Below are positions 1,620-38,000 of a DNA stretch of 64,000 bases, in pieces. Numbering within the stretch: the first letter of the stretch is position 1; each line of letters starts with the position of its first letter. The notes beneath the pieces are model-generated. The model was not told the origin of the DNA. It did not search any database and was given only the letters and a program-made list of their open reading frames with translations. The DNA lies in assembly GCA_009741485.1 (NCBI GenBank), contig CM019228.1:14165797-14229796 (forward strand). Reading direction: 5' to 3'. This DNA is from Malurus cyaneus samueli. Taxonomy: Eukaryota; Chordata; Aves; Passeriformes; Maluridae. The position numbers and the translations under genes are program-made.

Positions 1620-2525
1620 AGCATCTTCTGCTCGCCACGGGGACCCTGCTGTCCCCCCGTGCCACCTCTCGGCTGCAGGACAGCCCTGGCTGGCTCTCCC
1701 ACATCCTGCCCCGCTTTCCCGTGGATCCAGGTGGCCCCGGCGGAGCCGGGTGTCCCCCGGGTGCCCAGCTGTCCCCTGTCGCCCAGCCCTGGTGGATTTT
1801 CCAGTGATTCAATGGGTCGGGTGACACAGCCTGACTAAGAGCAGCCGCCACCGGACCCACGGAGAGCGCTGCTGCCACCGGCCGTTGTCACCGGTGTTGT
1901 CACCCCCTGCCTGCCCTGTGCCTGCTCTGCTCCCAGAGAGGAGCTGGGAGTGGAATCCTGTCCCTGCATGGTCGGTGTCCCGGCACACCCCGGGCCTGGT
2001 GTCCCCACAAGCTCAGTGTCCCTTTGCACATCCCTGTCCTCCTCCCTGCGTGCGCAGTGTCCCCTGTGCTCAGTGTCCCCAGGTTCACTCTCGGTGCTCA
2101 TACACTCCCAGCATCCCTGTCCCCTCCGTGTCCCCCCTGAGCATCCCAGGCTGTGCCACCACAGCCTTGACTGTGCCCAGCAGGCACTTGGCCCTGGCCA
2201 TTGCACTGTGACAGTGGGTGACAGCCCCCACTGCCTCCCCCCTAATTTATACATTAATATTTGTGTGTTGATTGTATTTATTGATTCTCAGGGTTAATTT
2301 AACTCCTGCTGCTTGAAGAAGTATTTAAGGACGTTTCTAATATATAAATATCTATTTTTGTTATATTTTTTTTTTTGGTACAGTGTTAAACTATGGACAT
2401 CACAAGGTTTTATTTATGTTTATTGATATTTTTGGTACGCAGAGAAGGGCAGTGCCCCCTGCCCACGTGGCACTTCTTTATTTTTGTACAACGGCAGAAG
2501 GAAATAAAGTGCTGACCTAGGCCTG
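1620..2525 (+). other. 3' UTR of an upstream cytokine-type transcript
   Basis: C-rich sequence up to about 2,230 passes into an AU-rich tail at 2,240-2,430 with several ATTTA pentamers (for example 2,276-2,280 and in the TTTATTTATG stretch near 2,410). This is followed by AATAAA at 2,503-2,508 and a GT-rich downstream element. Clustered AUUUA motifs are the hallmark of unstable cytokine mRNAs. LIF, 6 kb further on, ends in the same way. The strand and position immediately upstream of LIF fit OSM. No convincing open reading frame with a four-helix cytokine pattern precedes it, so the stop codon is not placed. Confidence 0.5.
2503..2508 (+). terminator. Poly(A) signal AATAAA of the upstream transcript
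   Basis: A canonical hexamer in GGAAATAAAGTGCTG, followed within about 40 bases by a TGTGTCCGTGTG-type GU-rich tract. It ends the AU-rich tail of the putative OSM 3' UTR. Confidence 0.65.
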
Positions 2526-2539
2526 TGGGCCACTGAGGC

Positions 2540-2960
2540 GTCATGTCTCTGTGTCCGTGTGTCCCCGTGTCCCCGTGTCCCCCTGTCCCCGTGTCCCTGT
2601 GTCTGTCCCGGTGGGCAGGGAGGGGCTGTATTCAGTGGCCAGGCTGTGCCTGTTGTCCTTGCCAGGGCACAGGGGATGTGACATGGAGTGGTGTGGCACA
2701 TGGGGGGGATGCGGGACAACACGGTGTGACCCCTGGCATGGCACAGGACATGGCACTTCAGTGTGGCACATGGCATGGCACAGAATGTGGCACAGCATGG
2801 CATGGCGTGTGTCACAGCAGAGGACGTGGCACACCATGGGATGTGTCCCTTGGTGTGGCACAGGGCATGGCACACACTGGGATGTGGCACAGGGCATGGC
2901 ACACAGCGCAGTGACGTGACAAGCTGTGCTGTGCCACGCCACGGTGTGGCAGGGGTCACA
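2540..2960. repeat. Low-complexity tandem tracts (TGTCCCCG and GGCACATG types)
   Basis: 2,540-2,615 is a simple array of TGTCCCCG/TGTCCCTG units. 2,690-2,960 is a degenerate array built on GGCACAGGGCATGGCACA. Long open frames on both strands here (HGMAQ- and CHAMPC-like) come from the repeat and are not genes. Confidence 0.85.
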
Positions 2961-3950
2961 TGGCATCGTGTGCCACATGCCACACAGCCCTGTCCAGGCC
3001 ACCGCCGCAGCCACCCCGAGCGCAGTGTCCTGCAGCCTGGCCAGGGCCACCACGGGGACTGGGCCACCCACTGCCACCGGTCCCGCTGAGTCAAAAATCC
3101 TAAGACCTGGTCATGTGTCCCCATGGAGTCACTCGTTCCCCGCGGGTGCCGTGTGCCGGTGCCACCGGCTCTGCCACCGGCCCCACTGCCTGAGTCAGTC
3201 ACAGCAGCAGCGCCACCGGGACGGCCACCACGGCCATCTGGGGACACTCATGGTGGGGACAATGTCACCATGAGGCAGCCCGGGCCAGCTTGGCGCGCTG
3301 TGGGTGACCGTGACGGCGACCGTGACAGTGCCACCACCGAGCTGCCCACCCAGGTCTGGAGAGGGCTGCAGAGGGGAGGTGCAGGTACGTGACCCCCCGG
3401 ACCGTGGGGAGGGCGGAGGGACCCCGAACACGGTGTGACACCCGGCTGAATGTCACTGGAGGGGTGGAGTGGCTTCTCTGGTGTCCTCACGGGGCTTTCA
3501 TGGGACTCCCAAGAGAACCCCAATGCGCACTCCTGGGAAAAGCCCGTGGGTGACACCTGTGGGGTGACATCGGTGGGATAGCACGAATGGGGTGGCAGGG
3601 GCTGGGTGGCACCGGTGGGGTGGCACCGGTGGGGCACAGGGACGGGGCTGAGGCAGCCCCGGGCAGGACCCACGGTGAGTCAAAGGGGAATTCGGTGCCC
3701 TCCGTTATTCAGCGTTGGATTTCCCCGGGACAGGAACACCTGCCCGGCTCAGCCCGTGCTCAGCCCCGCCGAGAGGGTCCCCCGAGCACCAAACCGGTGC
3801 AAGCGTCAGCCCCGCTCCTGGGGGACGCCCAGGGCTTTTGGTGACCCTGGGATCTGAATGTCGCCCTACACGGGGACACGGCGGGATGGGGACCCCGAGG
3901 GGAGCCAGGGGGTACTGTGGGATGGGGATGGGTGTGGGGGAATTATGGGT
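2960..3950. other. Intergenic, GC-rich, no gene seen
   Basis: C/G-rich unique sequence with short CACCGG-containing direct repeats around 3,600. No splice-flanked exon, RNA gene or mobile element was recognised. Confidence 0.6.
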
Positions 3951-4460: not shown

Positions 4461-6290
4461 GTGGGGGGAAGAGGGGAAGATATCTTGACAAGTGCGCCAG
4501 CTTCTCCGGGGTCAACGCGCAGGTCGCCCGGCCTCGGCTCCACAGGGAGGGCTGGGTCCTTCCTGCCTCTGTAGGTCGATCTGCTCCGCTGCCATCTCAT
4601 CGGGACGGGCACGGATCATGTGGGGATATTTGCCACGAGGGTATTGGAAAGGAGACATTTGGGCTCTTTCCACTCACGGCATTGCCATGATCTCCATCAG
4701 CCGCCTGCACAGGAATTGGGTTTTTCTCACAGAATCACCTGCAGAGGTCCAGGTCTCTCCGGGTTTGTCTTTTTTCTAAAATCTCCCTTCATTCCGATAT
4801 TTTTATGAGGGCTGAGCTGGGTGGGGACTGTGTCAGATGGTCACCAGCAGGGGATCTCTCGGGCGCAACACTCTGCACCTTCCAACCCTCCAAGCCCCCG
4901 CCCCACAAACGCCCCAGGAAAATCTATAATAGATGGGATCCTAAAGCTCAGCTCGGCTCGAGCCCGGAGTGAGCCGCTCCTGGGAAATTCAGGAAAAGGG
5001 CAGATCCGTGTCAGCCGTGCACACAACCGCCCCAGGACGTTCCCTATGCTAATAATTAAGCGCTGTTAATTCTTCAGCAAATTAAGTGCGTCAGGCCCTC
5101 AGATGTCCATCAATACGTGATGTACAACTCTCCACACCCCAAAAAGATTGGGATGAGGCTGCAGGGCGGGAGATGGGGCTCATCCTCCCCACCCTCCACA
5201 GCCCCCAGCTCATCTCTGCTGTCCCAGTAAGACCAGACTGGACTAAACTGGGCTTTGGTTGCTGGGGCATCAATGCCACCGGCCACCCAGGGTGGTTCTT
5301 GCATGGGGAAACTGAGGCACGAAGCAGCTATGGACCATCCCCCTGCACAGGGGGCTCTTCGTGTCCCCCTGGCCGTGTCGCACCCTCCAAGAGGGGACAC
5401 CCGGGGTCGTGATGGCTCTTTCGTCATCGTTCCTGGACTGTCACCGCCGGTTCACCTGCCGGGGCACAAACTTGCTGAACCTGATTAAAGTTCCAGCTCG
5501 GCTCCGGTGAGAAAAAAATACGGAGAAGTACAAAAAAATCCATTTAACCTGTTTTTCACCCAAATCGGGCAGCGAGCAGCTCCAGCATCCTGATCCCACG
5601 GCATCCCATCGAGACGGTGACCCAGCGCCCTCCTGTCCGCCCCAGCACCCTGTGCCCGCTCCGGGCAGGGGACAGCCCGGCCGAGGGAAGGGTTAACCCT
5701 GGGGGGGCCGGTCCAGCCTCTCCCCCTGGGTGGGTTTGTCCTTCTTCCTGCGGAAAACCCACCCGTTGATTGGAATATTTTTGCCCAAAGGGATGAGCCA
5801 CGGGCGGGTTGGGGGACACCGCTGCCACCGCGGTGTGCCACCGTGACCGAGTGCTGCGGGACCCCTCCATCACTTCCCCGCGCATTCCATCTCTCCAAAA
5901 CGCCCCCAAAACCCCCAGCCCAGGCTTTTTTACCTCCTTCCCTTGATTGCCTTCTCCGGCAGGCAGCGGGGAAGCCCCGGCCAGGGGAGGGGGACGCGGG
6001 GATGAAAGTGTTTGCGGCTCCTGAGTCACGCAAGGAGGGCTCACCATCGCGCCTCGACACCCCCGAACCCCACGTGGAGTCGCTCCCCTCCCTTGGGGGG
6101 CTTCAATTCATCTTTCCCAGCCCACCCACGTCCCCAAGCCCGCGCGTGAAACAAAACACGACACTAAACTCCGGGTGACATCAAGCTGTAGAACTTTATT
6201 TCTAAGCATCATTCATTAGTTCCAAACCCCTCCGACTTCCTGATTTCCACTTTCAATAGAAATAATGATAGCGGAGCTTCTCACCCGGAC
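4460..6290. other. Intergenic between putative OSM and LIF
   Basis: Unique GC-rich DNA without recognised exons. A short AT-rich island at 5,045-5,090 (TAATAATTAAGCGCTG and neighbouring AATTAAG words) stands out as homeobox-site-like and could be regulatory. 6,180-6,265 is another AT-rich patch. Both are only suggestions, based on composition. Confidence 0.5.
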
Positions 6291-6521
6291 GGAGCTGCGG
6301 CACGGCCGGGACGGCAGAGTGGGGGGTCCGGGCACTTCCAGCCGCGCTGGACACGCACCAAGCGGGATGAGTCCCCGCTCCAGCCGGACACCCTCCTTTT
6401 GGGTGCCCGGAACCGCGCTGGGCCTCGGTGGATGCTCTGCATCAGCGGCAGCCCGGTCCCCGCGGGCCGCCACCGCCCCGTCCCGCTCCCCGCCGTGACC
6501 CCGGCCTCTCTCCCCACACAG

Positions 6522-6700
6522 GCGTCGTGCCCTTCGTGGCCCTGCTGCTGCTGCAGAGGCGGCCGGTGGCCGGCCGGGCGCTGCTGGTGACGGGCTCCGG
6601 CTGTCCCGGCCACGGCTTGTGCCGCTCCAACGTCCAGGAGCAGACCCGCAGGCAGGTGGCCGTGCTCAACGCCACTGCCCAGGAACTCTTCAGCCTCTAC
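6522..6700 (+). CDS. LIF: LIF exon 2 (first copy)
   Basis: 179 nt coding from the end of codon 7 to Tyr66. It carries most of the signal peptide, Cys34, Cys40 and helix A (QEQTRRQVAVLNATAQELF). It is flanked by a pyrimidine-rich acceptor and GTAAGT. It is identical to the copy at 9,474-9,652. Confidence 0.93.
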
Positions 6701-7286
6701 GTAAGTGGCGCTTGGGGATGCCCGGGGCCCCCAGGGGGGATTGACCCACACGTGCACCGAGTGGGAGAACTGGGGACACGGGGGCAGGGGGCAGGAGGTG
6801 GCCGAGGGGACACAGGGGACACGGGGTGACAGTCCCCTCTCCTCCCAGCTGAAGTGCCAGGGAGAACCGTTCAGCAGCGAGACTGACAAGCTCTGCAACC
6901 CCGCCGGGATCTTCTTCCCCGCGTTCCGCGTCAATCGGACGAGCGAGAGGAAGGAGGTGATGGTGGCCATGTACAAGCTCTTCGCCTTCCTCAACGCCTC
7001 GCTGGGGAACATCACGCGCGACCAGGAGGAGCTCAACCCCATGGCCAAGGAGCTCCTCGAGCGGCTCCACAACACCACCAAGACCACCCGAGGCCTCATC
7101 TCCAACCTCACCTGCCTCCTCTGCAAGAACTACAACATCTTCCAGGTGGACGTCAGGTACGGGGACAGCTCCAAGGGCAAGAGCGCCTTCAAGAAGAAGC
7201 AGCAGGGCTGCCAGGTGCTCAGGAAGTACGTGCAGGTGATCGGCCAGGCGGCACGTGTGCTCCTACCTCATCTCAGCCCCTCATGA
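6522..7286 (+). CDS. LIF: Leukaemia inhibitory factor, exons 2 and 3
   Basis: LIF is a secreted four-helix cytokine that signals through LIFR and gp130 to JAK/STAT3. Exon 2 is 6,522-6,700 (acceptor CACACAG, donor TAC|GTAAGT). Exon 3 is 6,849-7,286, ending in TGA. With the 19-nt exon 1 found out of place at 9,891 they join in frame to 211 residues, close to the usual length. Visible marks are a hydrophobic signal segment (VVPFVALLLL, residues 8-17), the LGNITRDQ motif (118-125), six N-glycosylation sequons (N56, 95, 115, 120, 141, 152), and FKKK at 180-183, matching the LIFR-binding FxxK site of mammalian LIF. Cysteines 34, 40, 82, 155, 158 and 187 match the six disulphide cysteines, and C69 is additional. 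The frame upstream of exon 2 has no proper start, because exon 1 is displaced in this assembly. Confidence 0.95.
6849..7286 (+). CDS. LIF: LIF exon 3 (terminal coding exon)
   Basis: 438 nt starting LKCQGEPF and ending VLLPHLSPS then TGA. It encodes helices B to D. The intron before it (6,701-6,848) is only 148 nt. This is the only intact copy of exon 3 in the window. Two broken look-alikes lie at 12,501 and 12,991. Confidence 0.95.
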   Translation: MKCQGEPFSSETDKLCNPAGIFFPAFRVNRTSERKEVMVAMYKLFAFLNASLGNITRDQEELNPMAKELLERLHNTTKTTRGLISNLTCLLCKNYNIFQVDVRYGDSSKGKSAFKKKQQGCQVLRKYVQVIGQAARVLLPHLSPS

Positions 7287-8310
7287 ACACCTGCCCCAGC
7301 TACCCTGCCTCCCCAATTCCCGCCTTCCTATTTATTACCCGGACCCTGCGCTGGCCCCGTCTGGCCTCCGGTAACTTATTGCCCCTTGAAGGGGTGAAGG
7401 TTGCAGCCTGGAGTCCTGGCAGGAGCAGAGCCAGCATCCAGCGGGACAAGGCAGCGCATCGATGAGGAGATGCTGGGGCGTGGGCTGGTCCCGGGATGTG
7501 CCTCAGCCATCCCTGTGCTCCCGGAGGGTGTGGAGAGCTGTGGGGCTGGCGGCAGGGCCGGACTCTGTCCCACATGGATGTTGTCCAGCATGGAGAGAAA
7601 CTGGACAGACACCCTCGAGCAGCGCCTGGAAGCTGCCACTGCTCTGGAAAAAGAACTGCGAGGGAGGACATTGGGATGCAGTGGCTGCCAGGGACACGGG
7701 GACACGGGGACACACTCCCCCTGCACATTTTAAGGCTGGGCTCCCCTGCAAGGAGCCGAACTGAGGGTCCCGGTGGCTGTGGTGGCTGGGGCTAGGTGCC
7801 ACCGTCTGGGACAAGGCCACCCGTGGGGGACAGAGCGGGCGGTCCCCCCACTGTGGAGCATCACCCCCCGCGCGGGCACGGCGGGGCATGGAGTGTTCTC
7901 TCCTTTGGAAAAGTGCTTTTCCCATTGGAAGAGCTGTGAATGTACTGACGGCCAAGCTGGGCTTTGCACAGCTGGATGCAGCCCTGGCACGGGAAAATGG
8001 TACACGGGGACATGGGGACATGGGGCAGAGGGGTGTGGGACATAGGGACCTGGGGACGCAGGGACGGTCCCCAGGCCGGTGGCAGGAGGGGCTGGCTCGC
8101 TCCTGACACCAGAGCGGGCTGAGGGGGTTATTTATTGCCTCCGTGGGAAGCTCGGCATGCACTGAGATCTGTGACCTGACTTTTAATATTTATTGTTAAT
8201 AATAATTAATAATTATTAATAAGATTTGTGGTAATATATTCACAAAGGCCTATTTAAATATTTATTTTTTTATACTTCTTGCCCTCCTTTTTAAAATAAA
8301 CCAACAGAAA
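7287..8310 (+). other. LIF: LIF 3' UTR
   Basis: About 1 kb of GC-rich sequence with short GGACACGGGGACA repeats (7,690-7,720 and 8,000-8,060), then an AU-rich tail at 8,125-8,290. The tail contains repeated ATTTA motifs (for example TTATTTATTG near 8,129, TATTTATTG near 8,190, and TTTAAATATTTATTT near 8,250), the classical instability signals of LIF-type cytokine mRNAs. ORFs in this stretch are shadows of repeats. Confidence 0.85.
8295..8300 (+). terminator. LIF: LIF poly(A) signal AATAAA
   Basis: AATAAA in TTTTTAAAATAAACC, right after the AU-rich tail. A T/G-rich stretch (TTTGGCTCCTCTTTGCTGGG) follows. Confidence 0.8.
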
Positions 8311-8559
8311 CCAACTGTATTTGGCTCCTCTTTGCTGGGTCCCCTTTGTGCTCACCCTCAGACACCTCTGCTCCCCCAAAACACCCTCAGGGCTCCCCCA
8401 AAACCCTGCAGAGGCATCGCTGTGGATCACAGTCCCCTGTCACCTTGTTCTTCCCTTCCTTCCTTCCCACCTCCTATGGGATGGCTGTTTGGAAAATACA
8501 TTTTTACAGGGGTGAATGCTTCAATTGTCACTCACCAGCTGCTCAAAAGTGCTGAGATG

Positions 8560-9302
8560 ATGTGGGGATCATTGTGGTGTGGGGGCCATGGCAATGTGGG
8601 GTTCATGGCAGTGTGGGGGCCATGGTAGTCTGGGCACCATCGTGGTGTGTGGATCCCTGTGGTGTGGGGAACATCGTGGTGTGTGGATCCCTGTGTGTGG
8701 GACATCGTGGTGTGTGGATCCCTGTGGTGTGGGGACATCGTGGTGTGTGGATCCCTGTGTGTGGGAACATCGTGGTGTGTGGATCCCTGTGGTGTGGGGA
8801 CCATCGTGGTGTGTGGATCCCTGTGGTGTGGGGACCATCGTGGTGTGTGGATCCCTGTGGTGTGGGGACATCGTGGTGTGTGGATCCCTGTGGTGTGGAG
8901 ACCATCGTGGTGTGTGGATCCCTGTGGTGTGGAGACCATCGTGGTGTGTGGATCCCTGTGGTGTGGGGAACATCGTGGTGTGTGGATCCCTGTGGTGTGG
9001 AGACCATCGTGCTGTGTGGATCCCTGTGGTGTGGGACATCGTGTGTGTGGATCCCTGTGGTGTGGGACCATCGTGTGTGTGGATCCCTGTGGTGTGGGGA
9101 ACATCGTGGTGTGTGGATCCCTGTGGTGTGGGGACCATCGTGGTGTGTGGATCCTCATGGTGTGGGGAACATCGTGGTGTGTGGATCCCTGGTGTGGGGA
9201 ACATCGTGGTGTGTGGATCCCTGTGGTGTGGGGACCATCGTGGTGTGTGGATCCTCGTGGTGTGGGGAACATCGTGGTGTGTGGATCCCTGTGGTGTGGC
9301 GA
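8560..9302. repeat. Minisatellite, about 33-34 bp unit, roughly 20 copies
   Basis: The unit is CATCGTGGTGTGTGGATCC plus CTGTGGTGTGGGGA(A/C), with length variants of 30-34 bp. Almost every unit carries one BamHI-type GGATCC. The left edge (8,560-8,640) is degenerate, with GGGGGCCATGGCAATGTG variants, while the interior copies are nearly identical. Units change length often, yet open frames of 250-330 residues persist on both strands (GVWIPVVW / HHDGPHTTGI types). These are repeat artefacts. The array ends abruptly at 9,302 and the same unit reappears at 13,587. Confidence 0.95.
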
Positions 9303-9758
9303 GCTGGACACGCACTCAAGCGGGATGAGTCCCGCTCCAGCCGGACACCCTCCTTTTGGGTGCCCGGAACCGCGCTGGGCCTCGGTGGATGCTCTGCATC
9401 AGCGGCAGCCCGGTCCCCGCGGGCCGCACCGCCGTCCCGCTCCGCCGTGACCCCGGCCTCTCTCCCCACACAGGCGTCGTGCCCTTCGTGGCCCTGCTGC
9501 TGCTGCAGAGGCGGCCGGTGGCCGGCCGGGCGCTGCTGGTGACGGGCTCCGGCTGTCCCGGCCACGGCTTGTGCCGCTCCAACGTCCAGGAGCAGACCCG
9601 CAGGCAGGTGGCCGTGCTCAACGCCACTGCCCAGGAACTCTTCAGCCTCTACGTAAGTGGCGCTTGGGGATGCCCGGGGCCCCCAGGGGGGATTGACCCA
9701 CACGTGCACCGAGTGGGAGAACTGGGGACACGGGGGCAGGGGGCAGGAGGTGGCCGAG
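9303..9758 (+). repeat. LIF: Second copy of the LIF exon 2 region
   Basis: This segment matches 6,346-6,806. The first 150 bases differ only by small indels in homopolymers and short C/G runs. From about 9,456 on it is identical, offset by 2,952. It contains a complete exon 2 at 9,474-9,652 with its acceptor and donor. It begins exactly where the minisatellite stops and ends in mid-intron 2, where it is joined to DNA from upstream of LIF exon 1. Identity across intron sequence and the abrupt edges favour an assembly duplication over an old gene duplication. Confidence 0.9.
9474..9652 (+). pseudogene. LIF: Duplicate LIF exon 2, probable assembly artefact
   Basis: 179 nt identical to 6,522-6,700, with intact splice sites. 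It lies upstream of exon 1 (9,891) and has no exon 3 after its donor, so as placed it cannot form part of a transcript. See the repeat entry for its limits. Confidence 0.75.
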
Positions 9759-9765
9759 CCCTCTT

Positions 9766-9890
9766 ACAACCAGGCTGCTGCCGGACGGTTATATTAAACC
9801 CGAGAAGTCCCCAGTATGAACATGAATTTCTGAAAACTTCCTCTTGCCAACACCAATCCCTATTAAGTCGCTCCCGGGACGCGGCTCACA
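9766..9890 (+). promoter_or_regulatory. LIF: Putative LIF core promoter and 5' UTR
   Basis: The 125 bases before the LIF start codon contain a TATA-like TATATTAAA at 9,790-9,798, about 95 bases before the ATG. A short leader with GAATTTCTGAAAACTTCC follows, and then CGGCTCACAATGA around the start. A TATA element and short leader fit an inducible cytokine gene. The left limit is the junction with the misplaced exon 2 copy at 9,758, so more distal promoter sequence is not attached here. Confidence 0.5.
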
Positions 9891-9909
9891 ATGAAGTTCG
9901 TGCCGGCAG
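9891..9909 (+). CDS. LIF: LIF exon 1 (start codon)
   Basis: ATGAAGTTCGTGCCGGCAG followed by the donor GTAAAA codes for MKFVPA plus one base. Joined to exon 2 it gives MKFVPAGVVPFVALLLL, the same architecture as mammalian LIF, whose first exon also codes only a handful of residues ending at a glycine split by the intron. The phase fits exactly (19 + 179 nt = 66 codons). It lies 3' of exons 2 and 3 in this window, which cannot be the natural order. No other copy of this exon was seen upstream of 6,522. Confidence 0.85.
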
Positions 9910-11500
9910 GTAAAAAAAAAATAAAATCGACTTTGGGGATATTATTTCCCCTTCTCCCCCTCCCTCTTCTTCCCTCCCCCTCCCCTCCTCCTTTGGCCGT
10001 GATGCTCGGGTGCAGGCGGGTCCAGCTTGGATGCCGCCGCTGGAGCCGGAGCGAGGGCTCCCGCCGCGCTGCGTCCCCCCCGGGATGAGCATCTCTGGGA
10101 ATTGGCAGCGGGAGCGGAGCGCGGCGCTGGCGCGGTGCAGCAACATTGGACACTTATATAACTGGAAATGTTTCCAAGAAAAAAAAAAATCTCAAGGAGG
10201 GGGGAGGTTTTTTTTTTTTTTTACTTTTTTATACTTTTTAATACTTCCCCCACGCTCCTGCTTTTCCTTCTGGGTCTCCCAATGCCGCGAGCCGCTGTCG
10301 TGCCGGAGCGCTGGAAGGACGCGGAGGCTGCCAAGTGTAGGAGGGGGGACTGGAGGGAGCAGCCCCCACCCCAGAAGCAAGTGTTGTGGTGGTCCCACTA
10401 GCAGAACCCACACCGGGACCCCCCACCCACCCAGCCCGGCACAGTGGGCGCCGAGCCTCGCCTGCCCAGCTGTGAAATGGTCAGAAGCAGCTGCCGGGGC
10501 ACAGCAGCAGAGGGGCTTGCGAGGGGTCAGGGAATCTGCGTCCCGTGGGAACAGCCAGGGCCCCGGGGGCGCGGGGAGGCGGGGTCCCCCCGCCGGGCGG
10601 GAGGGGAGCGGCGGGTCAGGGATCGCAACACGCCCAGGTAAGTCCTCTCCCACCCGGGCAGGGTAAATAAATCGAGGCTTGGATTACCCGGCACCGGTGG
10701 CACGTCCGAGGCTCTGACAAGTGCGGGCGACTTCGGCGCTCGTCACGGTCCGGGGACTTGGCCCGTCAGCACCAACGGGCACGGGACCCCCATCCTGACG
10801 GGGCCCTGCTGGGGGCGTCCAGGTCACCCAGCAGCGGGGACACCCGGGCCACCCTCCCCGAGGATGCCCGGCACAGTGCGCTGGGTCTCCAGAGGCGGCT
10901 CGGCCTCCCCGAGCGGGGATGGATCCCGGTTTGGGGGAGTCCCAATGGCCGGGGGGTCGCAGCGCCCCGCTTTCAGGACGGGGACGGCGGGGAGACCCAG
11001 CTGCCGGCGGCTCAAGGGTCCCCTTGTTCCGCGTCCCGGGATTTCCTGGCGGGAGCCTCTGGCAGCTGCGTCCTCTCTCCCCAAGGCTCCTCGGCGCTGC
11101 GCCCGCTTCGCAGACGGGGAAACTGAGGCAGGCGGTGGGGCCGGGGGCGGAGAGAGGAGGGAGGGCACGCCGAAAGCAGGTTTCCTTGAGGGAGCCCCGC
11201 CTGAGTCAGCCGGACCGGGGTGGGGCCTTGCTCCCCCAGCGCCCGGACAGGGATAACGGAGGAAAAAGCGTTTTGCACATTTGATTGAGCCCGCCAGGTC
11301 GCCACCGGGCCGCTTGCGAAATGTGGGAATGCTGCGGGGCCTCCCGCCGGGAAGGGTAGGGCGGTGGTGCTGAGTTCGCGGACTGTCACTGAGCGGTGAC
11401 CCGAGACGCTGTGAGCGGAGAGAGCGCTCTGGTGCGGAAACGGGGGCGGTGAGCTTGCGGCACGGCCGGGACGCAGACTGGGTCCGGGCACTTCCAGCTG
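9910..11500 (+). other. LIF: LIF intron 1 (5' and central part), CpG-rich
   Basis: GC- and CpG-rich sequence with a poly-T tract at 10,209-10,222, as expected for the first intron of LIF. Its end at about 11,450-11,500 (GCGGCACGGCCGGGACG then GGTCCGGGCACTTCCAG) matches 6,296-6,342 with small indels. That stretch lies about 180 bases before exon 2. So 9,910-11,500 should lead straight into 6,343. The open frames in it are CpG-island artefacts. Confidence 0.7.
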
Positions 11501-12500
11501 CTCTCGAAGAAATCCTTGGATTACGCTTTTGAGTAGCACGCACGTGCAAGGCGGGATTGAATGTCACCGGGCTACTTTTCAAGTCGTGGACACCCTTCCT
11601 TGTTAGGCGGTGAGCCCGCGACGACCAGCCAGACTAGGCCAACACTAGTGTTACCATACGGATGGTGCTCCAATGACCCATATCTTAGCTCGTCGAATCA
11701 GTGCCTCTCTCGTTAAACCCAGACGGGAGCCACGCCTCTTTCCTACCGCCATAGCGCAGGCTGTCTCACCGCCTAGCCCCGGCGCGCGCGCCGTGATATA
11801 AAACCAGAAGCCTTCGTCTCCCGACTCACAAGGGTTCGATTATGCCCATTCCGCATGGCCTCTAAGTCTCCATCTTTCTGCCACATGATGGCATGCTTGC
11901 AGAGATAGCGTGCCCGTGGTGGCGTGAAAAAGGCGTGTCTAAGCGCCTCTGCTTTCTACATGGCGGTGGATTCTCGGCCTCCCTCGGTCTTTACTGGTTG
12001 TCTCCTTTCCGTGCGCACGAGTGGTGTGACCGCAAAGTAACTTCACTCAAACAACCCGATCCATAGGAGCATGACCCTCTTGCAAGTGCATGTGTGGTCG
12101 TAGAATTCTCCTCCATCGCATGCTCACCCAACGCGAGTCTCACTCATTGCAGTTCCCAGGGATAATTGACTTAGCCATTGCCGCTCTACCAAGCCTAAAT
12201 TAGTGAGGCGCTTGGGAGTTAGCCCGCCAGTGATTCGAGCACCCCCAGAGTGTGGCGGGGTATTGGTTCTCTTCACTCAGAGGTTTGCATCCGAGTGGAT
12301 TGGGGACAAATCTCGGGGACACGGTGAGAGAAAGTGTAGGATGCCCAGGGAAAAGGGTTGGCAGTGGCACGTATCGGTCTCGCCCGGTAGGGAGAGACCA
12401 ATCACGAGTCGGCTCGTGGTGGTGAGCGCTTGTTCACTCTGATCGCGCTGGCCGAGCTGAAGCTTCTGGTTAATGTCCATGTCATCGCGACTAGCTCGTA

Positions 12501-12566
12501 TTCGAGCAGCGAGACTGACAAGCTCTGTCAACCCCCGCCGGGATCTTCTTCCCCGCGTTCCGCGTA
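12501..12566 (+). pseudogene. LIF: Broken fragment of LIF exon 3 (first island)
   Basis: About 60 bases match LIF exon 3 at 6,873-6,932 (GAGACTGACAAGCTCTG, then GGGATCTTCTTCCCCGCG) with a few inserted bases that break the frame. Both sides are unrelated random-looking DNA. Confidence 0.8.
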
Positions 12567-12987
12567 TTACTCCTCTACATCGCGGACACGAACAGTGGCT
12601 GTATGGAGAGGCAAGACTATTCGGTCGTGTGATGGTGTGGCCCTGATTTGCTAGCTGTTCTCCTGTACGCCGCCTTACTCTTCTCTCGAAGCGACCTACT
12701 GCCTGTGTGCATTTCACGGCATGGTTGCTCTTGGTTAGTTCACTGGGTGCATGGGGTTACGGCATTTTCGCCCCGCAGTTGGAGTGAGGCACATAGATTC
12801 CCAAGGGGATTTCTCTTTTTCGCCATTTTGAGAGCCATGTGCAAGGCTAGTCCACTTCAATCTGGCCTCATAGGCGCACTCAAAGGAGAACTCCTCTCCA
12901 GAGTCGCGTGACTCACCGCAACACGCCCCTGAGCACATCTGGGTAAGAACACCTCTCTACCTACGTCAGCAGACGCCTCTCCTGTCT

Positions 12988-13024
12988 CTGCCACATCTGC
13001 GAGAGTAACTACAACATCTTCCCA
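12988..13024 (+). pseudogene. LIF: Broken fragment of LIF exon 3 (second island)
   Basis: TAACTACAACATCTTCC with loosely similar flanks (TGCCACATCTGCGAGAG) corresponds to LIF exon 3 at 7,107-7,145 (CTCTGCAAGAACTACAACATC). It lies after the first island, in the same order as in the gene. Confidence 0.6.
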
Positions 13025-13586
13025 GACCAGGCATATGGAGCGATGCATTAGCGACTCTACAAGCTGCGGCAGACGCTACAAAGTGGCTTCTGCAAATGCT
13101 ATGTAGTGCCATAATCAACAGTTACCAGCATATGCTCTCACTGAGCAGGATGGTGTTCGCAGGTCGCAATCAGTCTATTAAGTACGTTTGACTAGTATTT
13201 GCTATGCAATGAAAACAGATGTATCGTGGTCCTAGGCGTGCACGGCTCTGCATGCTTTACACGATACCACAATACAAATTCATACCATCAGTCCCCCATT
13301 CATTCCATTGTATTTACTACCTAATAGCAATGCTTCCCGCACGTAGCCGCCTCCACCTCACTCTCACCGGTAAGCAGCTGTCTTACCGTCATCCTATTAA
13401 CCCGAATGACGCGCTGTCGCTCTTCTGGGCCTGCACGTACGTGTGTGTCAGTCACGATAAATTTCATCTCGCCTCTCCTTGAAGGTGTGTTTGAATCGTG
13501 ACAAGCGCTCCATCGCCAACGACGTCTCTGGTAAGGATATTACCTTATGGCTTATATAGCACGACAAAGAGGCACCGAGCTATATT

Positions 13587-13760
13587 CATCGTGGTGTGTG
13601 GATCCTCGTGGTGTGGAGATCATCGTGGTGCAGGGATTGTCCTGGCACAGGGAGCATTGGGGTGTAGGTACCATGGCAATGTGGGGACCATCATGGCATG
13701 GGTACCATCCCAATCAGGGAACCATCGCAGTGTGTGGGGCATCGAGATGTGGGGAGCCCC
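13587..13760. repeat. Right-hand end of the 33-bp minisatellite
   Basis: Starts with ATCGTGGTGTGTGGATCC, the exact unit of the array at 8,640-9,302, then decays through GGTACCATGGCAATGTGGGG variants. The degenerate form mirrors the left edge at 8,560-8,640. The two arrays therefore look like the two halves of a single locus downstream of LIF. Confidence 0.85.
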
Positions 13761-35000: not shown

Positions 35001-38000
35001 TGCTCTGCAATTTGCAATCCCCAGTGTCCCCATGTATTCTGGCCAAAAATTCCCAGCATAAATCGAAGAAAATTTACAGCTCTCCTGACATGTGTTTTGC
35101 TTCCCAAGGCATCCTGTGCAGAGCTGCTAAAATTGCACAAGAGCATTCGGCTGTGTCCCTCTTTGTCCCTGAGCTGCCCCATGCTGAGGTTTGGCACTTG
35201 GCAAATTTTATGCCCTCAGAAGAGTTCCCTTTGTCCAGGACACGGAGGGTTTTGTTTGGTACCTTGTAACTATCCTGACAAACTCACAAGCACATGAATG
35301 CCAAAAGAAGTGCAGTTCCATCGAGCAAGCTGGAAGAATAAGGACTGAGATCCAAGACTGAGCTGTTGAAAGAAGGCAGAGTGACCCTCAGGTGTCAGGG
35401 CAACACAGTTTGTGCAGGGGACTTTCATCATGAGGGACATTAATCAGAGTGACCTGAGGCATCCTGTGATTTCAGCAGCAGCTACCACTGACTCAGCAGC
35501 ACAGCAAACTCTGGGCACTTCCAAAAATCAAGCCAGTGACTCTTTAAATTGGTCCCCTAAGACCTAATTCCCGCCTGCTCACTGACAGCTGGCTGCTCCG
35601 TGCTCCCAAGCACGGCAAAAAGCCAGGGTCACTGGACACATCATGGTGTCAGTGAAAGGATGAGAGATGGACAGAAACTGAAATCACAGAATCACAGATT
35701 CCCAGAACCGCTTGGAATGAAAGGGATCTTAAAGCCCATCTCATTCTACTCCCCTGCCATGGGCAGGGACACCTTCCACTGTCCCAAGGTGCTCCAAGCC
35801 CCATCCAACCTGGCCTTGGACAGTTTCAGGGAAATATAAGAAATTCCATTTAAACGTAAGAACCAACTTTACATGTTTTTACTGTGAGGGCAACCAACTA
35901 GTGGTGAAAGTCATCCAAGGAGGTTGTGGAGCCTCCTTCCTTGGAAATATTCACCACCTGAGGAGCCAAGGCCCTGAGGAACCTTCTCCCTTCCCCTGTG
36001 CTCTGAGCAGGTCTGTTGGCCCTGCTGATCTCCAGCTGCCCCTGCTGATCCCTGTGCGGGGGTGGCTCCGTCGTTAAAACCAGCACTGGACTCCCATCAG
36101 TTTCCAGTGCTGTGGTTGCACTGCCGTCACAGAATCCATCCTGATTTCCATCTGTGCCCATGCAGGGGGATCATGCTGGTTAGCAGGAAAGTCAGCTTAC
36201 ACAGGTGGAAGGACGAAAAACCCTCAGTGTGGTGCTACTGTGGAAAGTTGCCAGATTTTTGTGCCCAGGAAGCCATATCAACACATCGCTGACTACACCA
36301 GTCCTCTTCTTCAGTTCCTGATAAAACCTTCGTCATTCAGTGCCACTCTTTGGTCTCATGTCCTGCCCTGCACCTCATATGTTTTGTAGCTTTAAAAGGA
36401 CTAATGATCAGATATTTCCAGAGTATTAGAAGACAAAATTATCAAAAGCTCTCCTGCTTTCAGGGCCCTCAATCACACTGTCTACTTCCATGATGGACAT
36501 CCTGATTCTTGGATCACAGTTGCATCCCAGAATCCTTCCTCGGTGTGATTCCAGCTTTGGAACTGAGGGGAAAAAGGCAATAGACACTCCTGCCTACTAG
36601 GCTGCTACCCAGCAGCCCCTCATGGGATAATAGATGTGTCCAACCATAATTTATGCAGATTTCTCCAGAGGGTCTGGCTGCTAGAATGCATGGCATGAAC
36701 ACGCGGAATAGCAGCCAGCACGGAAGCGCCACGTCTTCCCGCAGATGTCCCTGGGGAAGCTGCCAGGGAATCTGAGGGTGCAAGGGTTAAATCTCCCTGG
36801 ATCTGTGGGGTGACAGGCCTCACCTCCACATGCAGAGATCACTAGGAAACTGTTTCCTGCATTCTAGACAGGGATAACTCATGGAAGGGATGAATGGCCC
36901 CAAGATACAGCTAAGGATCTGATGTGAACTGAGAGAAGCCAGGAATTTCCTGACCTCCCTGTCCCACTCCTCCCAGCATGGCCTGAGCTCACAGGAAGGA
37001 GAGGCAAGATCATCTCTGAATCTTTCTCTCTTCATTGCTTGGGTCTGTGTAGCTTCAGCTGGTTTGGAGGAGAAAATGTTCTGGGAACTTCTCATCAGAT
37101 ACAGCTCTCTTGATAGACAGACAGAGATAAACCCTGCTGGTTTTTTTCTCCTCTGCCAAAGTGTAAGATAATGACATTGCCACAGAAAAATGCTCTCCTA
37201 TTGCTCTGCACATAGCAAGTTTCATCCTTCAACTACCTTCTGTCATGGCACTTCTGAACGTGGTTTGCCTGGGAAAAATCAGACAACAAAGGTCTTGATC
37301 CCTGAGCTGTTGTTGTACAGTTGAACTCACTTGTGCTGATCTTCACTGCCAGAAGGGAGCTGACTACAACCCTGCACCTCAGCAGGGCACAGGAACCAGG
37401 GAATGGGTTGGGATGGAAGGGACATTAAAACTCTTCCAGTGCCACCCAGCCATGTGCAGGGACACCTTCCACTGTCCCAGGCTGCTCCCAGCCCCATCCA
37501 ACCTTGCCTTGGACACTGCCAGGGATCCAGGGGCAGCCACAGCTTCTCTGGGCACCCTGTGCCAGGGCCTCCCCACCCTCCCAGGGAACAATTCCTTCCC
37601 AATATCCCATCCATCCCTGCCCTCTGGCACTGGGAAGCCATTCCCTGTGTCCTGTCCCTCCATCCCTTGTCCCCAGTCCCTCTCCAGCTCTCCTGGAGCC
37701 CCTTTAGGCCCTGCAAGGGGCTCTGAGGTCTCCACAGGGTAACCATGACCCTGGGCACCAACAGGACACTGATCCCTGACAAACAACATGGGTATCACTG
37801 CATCATCCAAGAAAGTCTGTGTCCACACTGGCTTCCATCACTGCCACAACGAGCACATGGCCAAGTAGCCAAGTCTCCTGCACAAGGAGCAGCAGCTGGA
37901 GGCCAGACAGACTGTCCTCTGAGCCCTGAAGCAGCCCTGATTCACAGCACTTAGGTATGAACCTCTCCCCAGACATCTCAGGTGCAGACAGCTCCCGTCA

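Follow-up and report, generated by a model that had tools for sequence, protein, structure and literature searches.

Regions of false duplication in genome assemblies are, as described in PMC9516828, sometimes joined by sequence without read support that results from incorrect gap filling, and the same source reports false exon duplications together with incorrect fill for earlier assemblies of zebra finch, hummingbird and platypus. For a bird-of-paradise assembly, PMC7757076 describes GC-rich additions by PBJelly and 236 overfilled gaps. Here, we describe a related case for the leukemia inhibitory factor gene (LIF) in a stretch of 64,000 nucleotides from the passerine Malurus cyaneus samueli (assembly GCA_009741485.1, contig CM019228.1, positions 14,165,797 to 14,229,796, forward strand). 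This whole stretch is called the window, and all positions are counted from its first letter. In the window, exon 1 of LIF lies behind the rest of the gene, which is almost certainly an error in the data and not an unusual gene. We estimate a probability of about 95% for an assembly error at this avian locus rich in GC, comprising a false duplication, misordering and a bad gap fill. The key evidence for this reading is the tract behind intron 1 (11,508-13,583), which is a colinear, insertion-riddled copy of exons 2 and 3.

With the homotype false duplications and false exon gains of PMC9516828, the locus shares near-identical copies on one scaffold that are joined by sequence resembling a bad fill, and the exons of LIF would be falsely duplicated as in the GABRG2 example described there. 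Copies without allelic differences, which mark the homotype, were found for the readable pair, the only one that could show this, and the degraded tract is present by the LIF copies as candidate gap-filled sequence. While the class is defined in this source by read depth and k-mers, the LIF case is known from the assembled sequence alone. It differs furthermore from the cases described there in that the fill itself is a degraded copy recording the natural order.

The likeness to the overfilled PBJelly gaps (PMC3504050, PMC7757076) lies in the extension by long reads from one end without bridging, in the GC-rich content and in the underlying scaffold, which these sources blame. At the LIF locus, the fill tracks LIF from 6,345 to about 7,400-7,460 and abuts a minisatellite at about 13,583, as expected for an extension from one end without overlap. 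In contrast to overfilled gaps as described in PMC3504050, the LIF locus contains no N, and its tract carries far more insertions than are reported for raw reads. Compared to the LIF and OSM genes of other birds (PF01291), the window agrees in a LIF of 211 amino acids with three coding exons and in OSM lying upstream on the same strand, while the order of the clean exons as assembled and the unreadable last exon of OSM are different.

Coding exons of LIF

The passerine LIF gene lies on the forward strand of the window, and its exons 1, 2 and 3 join into a single open frame of 211 amino acids. The coding part of exon 1 (9,891-9,909) comprises 19 nucleotides, encoding MKFVPA plus one base, and reads ATGAAGTTCGTGCCGGCAG followed by the donor GTAAAA. 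It was assigned by its in-frame join to exon 2 at a phase-1 junction, and the split in mammalian LIF falls at this position as well. The clean copy of exon 2 (6,522-6,700) is bordered by AG/GT splice sites and joins exons 1 and 3 in frame; among the four acceptor positions tried (6,521-6,524), only 6,522 keeps the LIF frame. The clean coding part of exon 3 including the stop codon (6,849-7,286) was assigned by its in-frame join and the family match. Since the stop codon ends at 7,286, exon 1 starts 2,605 bases beyond it. An earlier note on this DNA had placed exon 1 2.6 kb after the stop codon and joined it in phase to exon 2 at 6,522, and both statements were confirmed by the values given here.

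The joined protein matched the Pfam profile LIF_OSM (PF01291), which covers the mature protein, at 6.6e-32 (111.3 bits, cut-off 23) and solved LIF structures at 3.7e-44. It is 98% identical over the full length to a protein of Hirundo rustica (P0001), whose record name includes Leukemia inhibitory factor, while passerine OSM proteins match LIF exon 3 at about 27-30% among the matches listed. Judged from these comparisons, the window protein is orthologous to bird LIF rather than to OSM.

Among the representative sequences of 25 bird-named LIF clusters, five begin with MKF[VM][PQ]A, i.e. with exon 1, while the remaining 20 lack the exon of 19 nucleotides and show another start or are marked partial. 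Since only 5 of the 25 clusters begin with it, bird models seem to miss this very small exon in many cases, whatever the assembly order. The earlier note expected an automated LIF model to be without its start; this is plausible, but such a loss is not peculiar to this assembly.

The tract behind intron 1

The tract 11,508-13,583 directly follows exon 1 and intron 1 and looks random to the eye. Its CpG ratios of 0.76-1.02 occur at a GC content of 0.48-0.56, while in the other stretches tested a CpG ratio of at least 0.7 accompanies a GC content of at least 0.59. Within the tract, 12,505-12,565 is a near-perfect copy of a part of exon 3 (6,873-6,931), with 96.7% identity over 61 columns. Both this piece and the degraded copy around it go beyond the earlier note.

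The two halves of the tract were aligned with gap costs that permit many insertions, and z scores were derived from 40 dinucleotide shuffles. The first half (11,508-12,504) matched 6,296-6,872 with a z of 18.1 (score 140.5, shuffle maximum 66.0) and the second half (12,566-13,586) matched 6,932-7,300 with a z of 7.7 (score 76.1, shuffle maximum 51.7), both in order and on one strand. An alternative scoring scheme gave z values of 10.1 and 4.1 for the same two pairs. As controls for the first half, eight other templates scored between -1.2 and 1.3. For the second half, the control 6,932-7,900, which includes the true template, reached 4.9, and six others ranged from -1.2 to 1.5. Ten consecutive windows of the tract were also compared with 167 templates. 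In eight of them, the colinear LIF template had the highest score, and in the other two it came second, beaten by 0.4 and 1.5 points. In nine of the ten, it also exceeded the maximum of 100 shuffle scores.

An earlier, coarser alignment of the entire tract (z 4.3) was later refined. The resulting whole-tract alignment places 6,345 at 11,526, exon 2 at about 11,833-12,189 and the coding part of exon 3 at about 12,457-13,312. The tract is expanded 1.43- to 2.76-fold and contains 969 inserted bases compared to 1,044 matches. Of the 969 inserted bases, 575 are A or T, and the insertions do not repeat the bases next to them. An origin by homopolymer stutter was not supported, since an inserted base is identical to a neighbour in 320 cases compared to about 389 expected, a count that is affected by the partly arbitrary placing of insertions by the aligner.

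A random or foreign origin of the tract was rejected, given the colinearity with LIF and controls near the shuffle level save one (z 3.5). From its alignment, the tract is best described as an insertion-riddled copy of LIF from 6,345 to about 7,400-7,460 on the forward strand, comprising exon 2, intron 2 and exon 3 in their natural place and order. Since this colinear copy follows intron 1, the assembly contains exons 2 and 3 in the natural order, although in unreadable form. The earlier note had described the LIF exons as out of order; this stands for the placement of exon 1 on the 3' side, but not as a simple swap, because exons 2 and 3 are also present, unreadable, in the right place.

Duplicated readable segments

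Further repeats at the locus are readable. The end of intron 1 (11,456-11,507) matched 6,296-6,351 with 85.7% identity over 56 columns including 4 gap columns (E 4e-8 to 5e-8), which bears out the overlap of the intron 1 end with the sequence from 6,296 onwards seen before. On the same strand, 9,300-9,758 is a partial copy of 6,343-6,806, running from the end of intron 1 through exon 2 into the first part of intron 2, with 98.28% identity. In this alignment, 457 of 465 columns are identical, seven are gap columns (six missing Cs and one extra T in the copy) and one is a mismatch, which falls on the junction, in the second column displayed. The two readable copies of exon 2 show no substitutions as expected between paralogues. 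Because 457 of 465 columns agree and seven of the eight differences are gap columns, paralogy is disfavoured, and 9,300-9,758 resembles a contig end from this LIF locus that had not been merged.

Next to the assembly error outlined above, the explanation that survives best is a heterotype false duplication, in which two haplotypes of one block were kept side by side. In the assemblies studied in PMC9516828, this was the main source of false duplications and sequencing errors were a minor one. For LIF it is considered unlikely, since the readable copies differ by gaps only, save the junction base, and show no clear heterozygous substitutions. The third copy is unreadable, and the error-driven homotype fits these observations better.

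The clean block continues with the LIF 3' untranslated region (UTR) and downstream sequence (7,287-8,560, forward strand), predicted from its AU-rich sequence with an AATAAA at about 8,295. Just 3' of LIF, a minisatellite with units of 17 and 34 bases follows on the same strand (8,561-9,299; tandem repeat score 1121 for 8,631-9,299). The repeat reappears at about 13,586-13,713, where a separate tandem repeat was reported for 13,586-13,630 and where 2 of the 28 copies of the repeat family D1 are located (13,587-13,713). This reappearance ties the end of the clean LIF block to the right flank. The minisatellite itself would be divided by the misassembly into 8,561-9,299 and 13,586-13,713.

Two junctions are presumed to be false, both with approximate positions. 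At 6,290-6,291, the left flank meets the end of intron 1, and the similarity to 11,456-11,507 begins at 6,296. At 13,583-13,584, the fill breaks off within the LIF 3' UTR and directly meets the right flank, which starts with the edge of the minisatellite.

Exon order in other birds

On the 5' side of exon 1, 9,758-9,890 is the presumed promoter and 5' UTR of LIF on the forward strand, predicted from a TATA-like TTATATTAAA at 9,789-9,798. Behind exon 1, the 5' and middle part of intron 1 covers 9,910-11,507 on the same strand and resembles the N-termini of LIF models and open reading frames (ORFs) from birds, namely at 9,896-10,081, 10,325-10,501, 11,173-11,361 and, weakly, 11,321-11,371. Out of 69 protein hits, 15 were compared with the window; some of them carry N-termini predicted from intron 1, which mark the exon order.

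In an ORF from a contig of 2,556 bases (P0069), sequence like 11,173-11,361 (E 3e-12) is followed by 6,497-6,820 (E 1e-31). Since the second part reads from the end of intron 1 through exon 2 into intron 2, contiguous DNA is suggested. A model from Morphnus (P0007) shows exon 1 and 9,896-10,081 (E 5e-13) in front of exon 2, and a Sylvia model marked as low quality (P0002) shows 10,325-10,501 (E 1e-13) in this place. An ORF from a contig of 1,199 bases (P0064) begins like 11,321-11,470 (E 0.001) and goes on as 6,293-6,826 (E 5e-42), and a Junco model (P0003) begins like 11,321-11,371 (E 8e-4, 13 of 17 residues), followed by exon 2; the first parts of both are weak matches. Finally, a Nipponia model (P0023) contains sequence like 2,995-3,254 of the left flank before LIF (E 2e-14). 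The order assembled in the window was found in none of these six relatives, and the other nine of the 15 carry no clear order marker. As read from these proteins, the exon 1 and intron 1 sequence precedes exon 2 in bird relatives.

The adjacent OSM gene

Upstream of LIF and on the same strand, an insertion-riddled last exon of OSM was traced to about 893-1,491 by an insertion-tolerant alignment of back-translated passerine OSM. All three passerine OSM proteins tested against 300-1,600 scored clearly above 25 single-base shuffles each (z 12.7, 7.8 and 8.1). As controls, a LIF protein on 300-1,600 gave -0.6, OSM on the LIF tract 0.4, the reverse strand -0.5 and the stretch 2,500-3,800 1.8, while the LIF protein on the degraded LIF tract as positive control gave 12.9. 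Insertion-tolerant alignment to 1-700 did not recover the N-terminal part of OSM (z -1.2), and exons 1 and 2 were not located. Among the matches listed, ordinary tblastn with passerine OSM gave E values below 0.01 on LIF exon 3 (6,969-7,247) only, and a Pfam search of five long ORFs of the window gave nothing above the curated cut-off. The position of OSM upstream of LIF in birds is reflected by models from Rissa tridactyla (P0051) and Geospiza fortis (P0027), which fuse an OSM-like N-terminus to LIF exons.

By these alignments, the last exon of OSM is damaged in the same way as the LIF tract, and this suggests a general weakness of the assembly in GC-rich exons. The base composition differs between the two: among the inserted bases of the LIF tract (11,524-13,580), T prevails over A (330 to 245), whereas the OSM tract 300-1,500 contains more A than T (290 to 178). 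These opposite skews perhaps reflect reads of opposite strands.

Origin and significance of the assembled order

Altogether, the colinear copy behind intron 1, the minisatellite that resumes on the right flank and the insertion-riddled texture shared with OSM support an assembly error. The true order, which is included in the probability given above, would be the left flank with OSM, 9,758-11,507, 6,343-8,560, the minisatellite and the right flank from 13,586. The earlier note had proposed nearly the same sequence of blocks (9,766-11,500, 6,343-8,560, the minisatellite, 13,600 onwards), for which the garbled copy and the bird relatives now provide support. Since exons 2 and 3 already sit, unreadable, in the right place, the clean upstream copy is most likely the false duplicate.

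Such an arrangement could have originated from scaffolding that put the clean block with exons 2 and 3 before the contig with exon 1. A gap-filling step with long reads would then have extended the exon 1 contig rightwards through the true exons 2 and 3, with a very poor consensus in which spurious inserted bases were retained, resulting in 11,508-13,583. The extension would have stopped in the 3' UTR and would have been butted without bridging onto the right flank, whose first bases presumably are the far edge of the minisatellite. In this process, 9,300-9,758 may have been left as another unmerged contig end. Naming the program that made the error would be a guess. For PBJelly, a plain extension is disfavoured by the complete absence of N.

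A number of observations weigh against the assembly error as described. As an off-target control for the second half, the reverse strand of 6,296-6,872 reached the z of 3.5, which is unexplained. The template 7,300-8,560 alone scored a z of 0.5, and the far end of the copy is therefore taken from the ranking test with ten windows, among which 12,708-12,937 lay below its shuffle maximum (25.7 compared to 26.3). Furthermore, the match counts are inflated because gaps are cheap: 472 template bases were matched in the first half compared to 267-376 in five shuffles. The insertion load is far above the raw-read error of about 15%, and there is no explanation of how exactly the tract arose. A benchmark with simulated reads in PMC8848313 gives mean gap-fill identities of about 82-97% for five other tools, and the tract is worse than these values.

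In addition, the false junction at 6,290 is presumed by elimination. Among the relatives, the marker of P0064 is weaker than chance-looking matches inside intron 1 (4e-6 and 2e-4), and that of P0003 is weaker than a chance-looking match at 37,479-37,745 (5.8e-4). Finally, there is no N anywhere in the window, whereas PBJelly, as described in PMC3504050, leaves N in merely reduced gaps.

A real partial tandem duplication of very recent date, either fixed or still segregating in this bird, would comprise extra exons 2 and 3, 3' UTR and minisatellite upstream of an intact but badly sequenced LIF. This would explain why the assembly contains a clean copy upstream as well as a degraded one in the natural order. 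Nonetheless, it is regarded as very improbable, since three real breakpoints (6,290, 9,300 and 9,758) would be needed in addition to a bad fill, while the readable copies lack paralogue-like substitutions apart from a single mismatched column out of 465, at the junction, differ by single-base gaps resembling sequencing errors, and lie next to an OSM that is equally damaged. A real reordering with exon 1 downstream, which would need trans-splicing or inactivate the gene, has nothing but the assembled order in its favour and can practically be dismissed, since the tract after exon 1 carries exons 2 and 3 in the natural order, the intact frame and splice sites and the 98% identity to swallow LIF are as under constraint, and the relatives show the normal order.

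GC-rich bird genes are, according to PMC7757076, often absent from short-read assemblies. With the assembly error recognized at this locus, random-looking tracts with a high CpG ratio at moderate GC content can serve as a warning sign, since they can be over-inserted copies of genes, and such tracts can record the true contig order. The biological interest of the finding is low, while curators may benefit from it. For the LIF and OSM genes of birds, it prevents the false claim that LIF is scrambled or OSM is lost in this species.

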